The notes below the pieces were generated by a model. It was not told the origin of the DNA and made no database searches. It saw only the letters and a program-made list of their open reading frames with translations. A DNA stretch of 64,000 nucleotides from Halobaculum sp. MBLA0147 (GTDB lineage: Archaea > Halobacteriota > Halobacteria > Halobacteriales > Haloferacaceae): positions 1,178,001 to 1,242,000 of the forward strand of contig NZ_JBGKAD010000001.1 in NCBI RefSeq assembly GCF_041361345.1, written 5' to 3'. Both the position numbers and the translations under genes were made by a program. Each line of letters starts with the position of its first letter. Position 1 is the stretch's first letter. Shown piece by piece: positions 26,180 through 60,400 of this stretch.

Positions 26180-27982
26180 ATGACCGACCACTTCGAGGTC
26201 CACGACCGGGACGGGGCGGCCCGGCTGGGCGAACTCCGACTCGGCGCCGGGACGACGACGCCGGCTCTCGTCGCGGACGCCGACGCCGACCCCGGCCACC
26301 CGGACGAGGCCGCCGTCCTACGCGACGCCGGCAGTCTCTGGACGGAGCACCGCGAGGTGCCCGCGGGGGACGACGACGTACTCACACTGTTGCCACACCG
26401 CGCGTTCCCGTCCGGGACGCGCGAGGAGGTGATCGACTCGTTCGCACCCGACTACCCCGAGATCGACGGCCCGTCCGCGGCGGTCGTCACGAGCGACGCC
26501 CCCGACGCCGGCGGCGCCGCCGAGGCGCCCGTCGACGCCTACGTGCTCTCGGACGCACAAGGGGTGGTGGGCCACGCGAGCGCCTTCGTCGACGCCGTGA
26601 TCCGCACCCGCGGGACGGTGCCACCGGACACCGCCGTCTACCTCGCCGGGGTCGCCACGCCGCGCAACGTCGCCGCCCTCGTCTACGCCGGCGTCGACCT
26701 CGTCGACGCGACGGCCGCCCGCGTCGCCGGCTCGCGCGGTCGGTACCTCACGACGGACGACGAGCGATTCCTCGAGGACCTCGACGAGTTGCCCTGTGCG
26801 TGTCCGGCCTGTCGCGGCCCGCGGGCGGAGTTCGACCGCCGCGACTGTGAACGCCACAACGTGAACGCGCTGGCGGCGGAACTGCGCCGCGTTCGACGGC
26901 GGATCCGCGAGGGGCGACTCCGGGACTACCTGGAGGGGCAGAGTCGCCACGAGCAGTGGGTGACGGCGACGATGCGGGAACTCGACCAGGAGTACGCCTA
27001 CCTGGAGCGGCGGACGCCGGTCGTCCGCGAGAACGAGGTGACGGCGGCGACGGACGACACGCTGCGGCGCGTCGAGATCCAGCGGTTCGCCGAGCGCGTC
27101 ACCGGGCGGTACCGGTGTCGGTTCGACCAGCCGCTCGTGTTGGTGCCGTGTTCCGCGAGCAAGCCGTACTCGGAGTCGCAGTCACACGCGCAGTTCCACG
27201 ACGCGATCCAGTACCGTGGACACACCGTCTCGATGACCTCCCCCATCGGCGTCGTCCCGCAGGAGTTGGAGCTGACGTACCCCGCACAACACTACGACAC
27301 GGTCGTCACCGGCGAGTGGACGGAGACGGAGAAGACGTTCGTCGCGGACGTGCTCCGGGCGTACCTCGACCGCACCGACTACCCTCGCGTGATCGCCCAC
27401 GTCCCGCCGGAGGGGTACCGCGACATCTGCGAGCGCGTCGCCGCCGAGGTAGACGTGCCCTTCGAGTTCACGGTCGAGGACCACCCGACGACGACGGAGT
27501 CCATCGGCAACCTCATGCGGACGCTCGACGGGGAAGAGAAGTACCGCAAGCGCGAGCGCCAGCACAACACGATCCGTGCCATCGCGGACTACCAGTTCGG
27601 CGACGGCGCGGGCGACGCGCTGTTCGAGGAGTTCACGACGACGAGTCGCTACCCGAAACTCCAGGTGCGTGACGACGACGGCGAGCAGTTGGCGACGATG
27701 GTGCCCAACTACGGCGTGTTGTCGTTCACCCTCGCCGGGGCTCGCCGGTGGGGCGACGGTGACGCGCCGACGAAACGCGTGGAGATCGACGACTTCGTCC
27801 CGAGCGGGAGCGTGCTCGCGCCGGGCGTCGTGGACGCGGACGACGACGTGCGCGTCGGCGACGAGGTGATCGTCGAGGGGCCCAGCGCCTTCGCCGTCGG
27901 CCGCGCGCAGATGTTCGGCCGCGAGATGCGCGACTCCACGCGTGGCGTCGCGGTGAAAGTACGTCACTCCGAGGAGATCTGA
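26180..27982 (+). CDS. arcS: Archaeosine synthase ArcS (TgtA2)
   Basis: A 600-residue enzyme that converts preQ0 in tRNA position 15 to archaeosine by amidation. The N-terminal half is a decayed TGT domain without the DSGSF catalytic motif but with the zinc-binding CACPACRGP. The ArcS-specific block with PCSASKPYSESQSH is near residue 318, and a PUA domain closes the protein (about 520-600: KRVEIDDFVPSGSVLAPGVVD...). It pairs with tgtA at 22791. Confidence 0.96.
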   Translation: MTDHFEVHDRDGAARLGELRLGAGTTTPALVADADADPGHPDEAAVLRDAGSLWTEHREVPAGDDDVLTLLPHRAFPSGTREEVIDSFAPDYPEIDGPSAAVVTSDAPDAGGAAEAPVDAYVLSDAQGVVGHASAFVDAVIRTRGTVPPDTAVYLAGVATPRNVAALVYAGVDLVDATAARVAGSRGRYLTTDDERFLEDLDELPCACPACRGPRAEFDRRDCERHNVNALAAELRRVRRRIREGRLRDYLEGQSRHEQWVTATMRELDQEYAYLERRTPVVRENEVTAATDDTLRRVEIQRFAERVTGRYRCRFDQPLVLVPCSASKPYSESQSHAQFHDAIQYRGHTVSMTSPIGVVPQELELTYPAQHYDTVVTGEWTETEKTFVADVLRAYLDRTDYPRVIAHVPPEGYRDICERVAAEVDVPFEFTVEDHPTTTESIGNLMRTLDGEEKYRKRERQHNTIRAIADYQFGDGAGDALFEEFTTTSRYPKLQVRDDDGEQLATMVPNYGVLSFTLAGARRWGDGDAPTKRVEIDDFVPSGSVLAPGVVDADDDVRVGDEVIVEGPSAFAVGRAQMFGREMRDSTRGVAVKVRHSEEI

Positions 27983-28226: not shown

Positions 28227-28289
28227 GATGGTCTCACTTGCTTCTATTCTTGTAAAACCCACCCTACGGTCGGCGATAGTGTCAGAACG

Positions 28290-28674
28290 ATAGTGTTCAG
28301 ATAAGGGTGAGCAGTCGGACGAGACTCCCACTCAGGAAGCCCCGAGGGAATCGCGGTCGCTCGGCGACATATCGCGCCTCTTGTGCCCGGCTTCGCCGGT
28401 TACATCGAGGCGCGGCGCAGCCGCGCCTCGCAGGCACCGCTCGGCGCGATAGGGGTCGCCGAGACGACTGAACTGAACGCGATCCCCTCTACGGGAGAGC
28501 GGAGCTCTCCCGAGCTCACGGCGGCGCAGCCGCCGTGACCGCCCCTTCCGGTCCCGCCCGAATCCGCCCCGCACAGCGCCTCTTCCTCCCCAGCCTCGTC
28601 GCTCGCTGCGCTCGCTCCTCCCTCGCGCGTTTCTCGCGCGCCACCCGCAGCTATCGGCTTATCCGAACACCGCC
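28290..28674. mobile_element. 385-bp transposon-like element without transposase (MITE-like), hairpin-rich
   Basis: The left end GATAGTGTTCAGATAA (28290-28305) and right end TTATCCGAACACCGCC (28659-28674) are inverted repeats matching at 12 of 16 positions. Both are flanked by the same 8 bp, GTCAGAAC (28282-28289 and 28675-28682), a target-site duplication. Inside there is no credible gene but a chain of perfect hairpins: 28407-28429, 28493-28511, 28516-28538 and 28624-28640. A diverged relative begins at 60310 with a 16-bp end identical to the right end. Terminal repeats and target size suggest mobilisation by a DDE transposase encoded elsewhere. Confidence 0.75.
28360..28463. ncRNA. Candidate multi-branched structured RNA inside the element
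   Basis: An outer stem pairs CTCGGCGAC (28360-28368) with GTCGCCGAG (28455-28463) and continues as ATCGCGCC (28371-28378) with GGCGCGAT (28443-28450). Inside, GTGCC (28383-28387) pairs with GGCAC (28433-28437). That stem encloses two hairpins, CGGC-TTC-GCCG (about 28388-28398) and GAGGCGCGGC-GCA-GCCGCGCCTC (28407-28429). Nested perfect pairing of this kind is rarely accidental, even at high GC. Transcription is unproven and the strand is unknown; a DNA cruciform is the alternative. Confidence 0.4.
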
Positions 28675-28801
28675 GTCAGAACAGGCGTGGGTTTTGTATC
28701 ATCAGTTATCGAGTGGATCGACTGTTCGCCGTCGTGTCGTGTTCGCCGCCGACGATGCCGCGTCCCGAACACGTAGGTCGCTCCGTCACGTCGCTGGGAG
28801 C

Positions 28802-60309: not shown

Positions 60310-60400
60310 GGCGGTGTTCGGATAAACCGGGAGTTGCGGATGGCGCGCGAGAAACGCGCGAGGGAGGAGGCTGGGGGGTGAGGTGCTGTGCAGGACAGTG
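60310..60400. mobile_element. Diverged end of an element related to the one at 28290-28674
   Basis: GGCGGTGTTCGGATAA (60310-60325) is identical to the inverted right end of the 28-kb element. The next about 60 bases match it as reverse complement with a few changes, including the hairpin CGCGCG-AGAAA-CGCGCG. A 20-base block present at 28 kb is missing here. I cannot find the other end or a target duplication, so this is a decayed or partial copy. It lies 51 bp upstream of the mutS start. Confidence 0.65.

Follow-up and report, generated by a model that had tools for sequence, protein, structure and literature searches.

The haloarchaeal insertion sequences of the IS6 family, ISH29 and its relatives, are about 697 bp long, carry a transposase gene, end in the terminal repeat GGNNGTGTTCAGATAAG and duplicate 8 bp of their target. 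REP elements, which are served by RAYT transposases, are dispersed intergenic palindromes. Three kinds of small element have been described in Haloquadratum walsbyi: MITEs, PATEs and palindrome-targeting small mobile repeats (PMC3119063). The passages of that study devoted to MITEs present them as short and transposase-free, with the ends of known transposons, a target duplication and an interior unrelated to the transposon, while those on SMR-A, a small mobile repeat, present units of roughly 110 bp that have conspicuous terminal inverted repeats, make no target duplication and lodge within palindromes of other elements. Double-hairpin elements are found in mitochondrial DNA, and those of Allomyces are thought to be mobile without duplicating their flanks (PMC2800124, PMC5910586).

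The locus described here, from Halobaculum sp. MBLA0147, shares features with each of these. It lies in the window (the whole 64-kb stretch of DNA that was analysed) between an arcS/TGT-like gene (26180-27982), whose product has TGT and PUA domains and resembles archaeosine synthase, and hyuA, and is most probably (we would put it at about 0.85) a MITE mobilised by IS6, with a widespread structured repeat as its core and double-hairpin units inserted into that core. It has the terminal repeats and 8-bp duplication of the ISH29 group, but has no transposase gene and an interior unrelated to those elements. Compared by description, it is of the same type as the H. walsbyi MITEs, although the account of these in PMC3119063, as far as its MITE passages go, describes neither covarying hairpin cores nor double-hairpin inserts. 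The inserted units are likewise small and without target duplication, as SMR-A is, but are hairpin pairs of about 50 nt. Their likeness to the mitochondrial elements (hairpin pairs, no flanking duplication) is one of form only. The organelle elements reside in organelle DNA (as characterised in PMC2800124 and PMC5910586), and the present units are nested in a MITE on archaeal chromosomes; no double-hairpin element outside organelle DNA was described in the open-licence literature searched. The underlying repeat resembles REP elements as a dispersed intergenic palindrome, but lacks their association with a Y1 transposase.

Boundaries and ends of the element

Exact 8-bp direct repeats GTCAGAAC flank the element at 28281-28288 and 28675-28682, and the unit between them is therefore 28289-28674 (386 bp). 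The first-pass annotation had recognised this duplication and the right-hand boundary, but began the unit one base late, at 28290, giving 385 bp. The terminal inverted repeats GATAGTGTTCAGATAAG (28289-28305, plus strand) and GGCGGTGTTCGGATAAG (28658-28674, minus strand) are imperfect, agreeing at 13 of 17 positions once the start is moved, in place of the 12 of 16 counted before, and the terminal core GTGTTCRGATAAG agrees at 12 of 13 between left and right ends. With up to two mismatches this core motif occurs four times in the window against 0.75 expected, and GGNNGTGTTCRGATAAG, with up to one mismatch, occurs 32 times in the genome against none for the reversed pattern. The same MITE family is represented a second time in the window by a lone right-end fragment at 60310-60369, on the minus strand. 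No transposase gene is encoded within 28289-28674, as had been reported. On inspection hyuA probably starts at about 28803, some 130 bp beyond the end of the element.

The genome (4.29 Mb in six contigs) contains dozens of related places, partial copies as well as several at full length, and those with both ends have lengths that include 285, 335-336, 386-389 and 488 bp. The 8-bp duplication is exact in the window copy and in one other full-length copy (L011) and has one mismatch in L008, while in the remaining copies it has diverged or is unclear or unrecognisable. Two IS6 elements in the same genome, 695 and 699 bp long and both degenerate, have ends of the same kind. The better-preserved frame matches the NCBIfam IS6 transposase model with an E value of 1.2e-34, just under the model cut-off, and its best matches on haloarchaeal plasmids, at 71-77% identity, carry the annotation of IS6 or ISH29 family transposases. 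Intact ISH29-like relatives measure 697-698 bp and terminate in sequences such as GGCAGTGTTCAGATAAG / GGTAGTGTTCAGATAAG; of five that were inspected, four are flanked by exact 8-bp duplications. Since both the ends and the duplications match those of ISH29-like IS6 elements, we file the element as an ISH29-type MITE: it is small and multi-copy, has the terminal inverted repeats of its parent insertion sequence and an 8-bp duplication, and encodes no transposase. The earlier suggestion of a non-autonomous transposon is thus borne out, and IS6 is the transposase family that shares its ends.

We propose that an ISH29-type transposase acting in trans would have inserted the MITE and produced the duplication. 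A search for empty sites found none for the window copy or for L011, as the two flanks of each lie apart in the three congeners compared. No IS6 transposase scoring above the Pfam cut-off was found intact in four genomes of the genus, which makes current mobility doubtful; taken together with the difference of about 8% between the base copies and the window copy, it suggests a family that is old and perhaps stranded, and the element is apparently without an intact helper at present. One of the degenerate IS6 elements (L117, C6:77508-78202) has GTCAGAAC, the sequence of the window's duplication, two bases downstream of it, with a mismatched left flank; this is possibly coincidence.

The 285-bp base form and its double-hairpin inserts

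The many copies in the genome can be aligned, and resolve into base and longer forms. Among the full-length copies, four have a base form of 285 bp, and the longer ones add discrete blocks of about 50 nt at about six sites. Removal of 28382-28432 (insert C, leaving one C of the base form) and 28489-28539 (insert D) reduces the window copy to exactly 285 bp, which then aligns without gaps to the four base copies at 259-263 of 285 positions (91-92%). Each of these 51-nt blocks, both read on the plus strand, consists of two GC-rich hairpins and a short linker. The description of the element as almost entirely hairpins was somewhat overstated, as it comprises a 285-bp core with two double-hairpin inserts and its left 50 bp or so lack a strong hairpin. 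The perfect hairpins with GCA, GGA and TTTCT loops that had been pointed out are indeed present, and the element folds much more strongly than its dinucleotide shuffles, with z scores of -5.7 (plus strand, DNA), -5.2 (plus strand, RNA) and -6.5 (minus strand, RNA).

Insert C is missing from L008, L009, L011 and L031a, while its site is occupied also in L002 and L004. In L033 and L039 the same unit is found at a different site, inside the hairpin-2 loop, and in L039 a further hairpin pair is nested within it. Insert D is likewise missing from the base copies, and its site is occupied also in L005, L031b and L033. Where L031b and L033 carry a pair at one common site, both arms of the second hairpin differ between them (CGGGAGC/GCTCCCG in one, CGAGACC/GGTCTCG in the other). 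Similar hairpin pairs, with linkers such as TGCCA, occur in Halorubrum, 12 of 15 of them close to a module of the repeat described below. No duplicated flank was seen around the inserts on comparison with the base copies.

Since four copies share the base length, one unit appears at different sites and units are nested, the longer forms probably arose by insertion rather than the base forms by deletion, although the units are seen as differences between paralogous copies and not between strains. Inserts C and D, blocks that sister copies lack, would accordingly have entered the core after it was formed. The occurrence of unit C at different sites, together with the nesting, further suggests that such units are tiny mobile pairs that enter the loops and junctions of hairpins with no visible target duplication. 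In form they are double-hairpin elements, each short unit having two adjacent GC-rich hairpins, and they occupy several sites without duplicating the target.

A structured repeat shared among haloarchaea

The core of the element has the layout CTCCCCAGCCTC-hairpin-CCCTCGCGCG-hairpin-CGCGCC. In the window, the conserved block GAAGCCCC (28336-28343, plus strand) forms the left border of hairpin region 1, and is invariant in the full-length copies of this genome and found also in Halorubrum repeats, while the linker GCCCCTTCCGGTCCCGCCC (28541-28559, plus strand) is kept in the copies of this genome and in other haloarchaeal genera. The linker CTCCCCAGCCTC follows at 28586-28597 (plus strand), and then hairpin 2 (28598-28618, minus strand), which when read on that strand has a GCA loop and belongs to a tandem-G.A class defined on 119 distinct homologous hairpins, and hairpin 3 (28624-28640, CGCGCG TTTCT CGCGCG).

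We scanned genome contigs for the two linkers, CTCCCCARCCTC and CTCGCGCG, separated by a variable hairpin. Of the 80 loci listed, 74 are haloarchaeal, most of them from Halorubrum and Halorussus but some from Halosimplex, Halobellus and Halobium; the other six, which are bacterial, are isolated and are taken as chance, and the core repeat is thus almost confined to Halobacteria among the loci listed. Single genomes hold up to 98 exact places, compared to none or one for the reversed pattern. Related sequence was also found in one viral contig and three haloarchaeal plasmids. Using gene calls made from codon composition, nearly all of 87 modules in 74 loci are intergenic, with no preference of strand relative to the flanking genes (15 ++ and 17 --) and with more modules in convergent gaps (26) than in divergent ones (10). 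The 285-bp core of the element is a copy of this haloarchaea-wide intergenic repeat, with its conserved linkers and with hairpins that change in sequence yet still pair. Clear IS6 ends were not found in the repeat copies inspected in relatives, with the exception of a congener (L156) that has a seemingly degenerate IS6 end. Related genomes share the interior widely, while only partial matches to the full IS6-ended element were found outside its own genome, L156 being one of them.

At one orthologous Halorubrum locus, the loci compared include 14 with the repeat in one orientation, three with it inverted, one without it and a few with remnants, and the copies carry differing hairpins between identical linkers. 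At a second orthologous locus the repeat is likewise present, absent or inverted between species. No target duplication was visible by eye for the repeat outside IS6 ends at two Halorubrum loci, where divergence of the flanks makes this negative uncertain. Three side observations concern individual Halorubrum loci. In one species (L351, genome G204) the left unit, some 60 nt in length and bearing a TTATAAAT-like box, recurs about six times in tandem, and in a close relative (L358) it is single. At L315 hairpin 1 seems to have its interior inverted when compared with the orthologous copies of other Halorubrum species. A leuA-Halobacteria RNA (Rfam RF03001; L121:1946-1998) lies near one repeat and is apparently unrelated to it.

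The hairpins of the repeat change while remaining paired: hairpins 1, 2 and 3 all pair less well when their arms are exchanged between copies, and none of 1000 permutations reached the observed level. Among the 119 distinct hairpin-2 sequences read on the minus strand, tandem GA/AG with paired neighbours was counted 126 times and TC/CT not at all, although the genomes behind these sequences are related, so that the counts overstate their independence. Their loops are often GNA. In hairpin-2 sequences of two length classes the GA/AG positions are near-invariant, the flanking pairs vary among CG, GC, AT and TA, and none of 2000 permutations reached the observed pairing. In DNA, GNA triloops and sheared G.A pairs in tandem are known for their high stability, and RNA too contains tandem G.A pairs. 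Because the tandem G.A always lies on the same strand, the fold under constraint is that of the G-rich minus strand of the window, as single-stranded DNA or RNA, and the pattern of covariation supports its being a structured nucleic acid under selection. The copies also share conserved minus-strand G-runs (GGGTGGGACTCAAAGGGGCAG...CTGGGG); these might assemble into a G-quadruplex, with hairpin 1 as one of its loops. The element and the repeat have no family match in Rfam, and the repeat core has none in the open-licence papers that were searched; the Rfam search otherwise returned a sub-threshold nematode snoRNA match outside the element, and leuA-Halobacteria RNA and a tRNA in neighbouring loci. 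The idea in the first-pass annotation that the element carries a structured RNA thus holds as far as a selected structure is concerned, with RNA and single-stranded DNA both left as candidates.

Competing explanations and their implications

The strength of the covariation, the conserved linkers and the strong minus-strand RNA fold (z -6.5) would also be expected if the core were a gene family for structured non-coding RNAs, with transcription driven by TATA-like boxes of the left units, and the MITE had simply picked up one member. Many Halorubrum left units, sometimes in tandem, indeed have TTATAAAT-like boxes about 27 nt before GAACACC. However, transcription from these boxes would follow the plus strand, not the minus strand indicated by the G.A bias, and many left units have no such box; with the repeat lacking both an Rfam family and a strand preference relative to genes, we consider this explanation possible but rather doubtful. 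Were the hairpins maintained neutrally, through template switching and correction of quasipalindromes and without any selection for the folded strand, this would account for the fast turnover of hairpin arms and for the inverted hairpin region in L315, which is what template switching gives. But correction would be expected to perfect the tandem mismatches, and instead GA/AG is almost invariant, on one strand relative to the linkers, with covarying pairs on either side. This speaks against mere palindrome correction and for a constrained single strand, and we regard the neutral alternative as unlikely.

Movement by a Y1 (HUH) transposase, in the manner of REP/RAYT or of IS200/IS605-related, PATE-like elements, would fit intergenic palindromes without target duplication outside the IS6 ends. 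Two genomes with more than 50 copies each (G015 and G092) nevertheless have no Y1_Tnp match, and a full repeat module lies near just one of 14 Y1_Tnp loci, in its last few hundred bases. In view of this lack of association Y1/RAYT mobilisation was rejected as very improbable. We give still less credence to a cis-acting regulatory cassette of hyuA, which the first-pass annotation had raised and for which the short distance to the likely hyuA start can be cited: the copies adjoin unrelated genes, related repeats show no bias in orientation, and hyuA and the gene on the other side of the element are not neighbours in three congeners.

With the MITE on a structured repeat as the preferred reading, we offer a broader proposal tentatively, and at rather less than even odds. 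Haloarchaea may host nested hairpin elements of an undescribed kind, in which an intergenic repeat present in many copies, under selection for the folding of a G-rich single strand in which tandem G.A pairs recur, also serves as a landing platform for double-hairpin units of about 50 nt, whose movement would have folded single strands as its substrate. The readable series of 285-bp base form, single pairs and nested pairs may allow the spread of tiny hairpin elements to be studied in cultivable archaea, and the locus exposes a very common haloarchaeal repeat whose single-stranded fold shows unusually clear selection.
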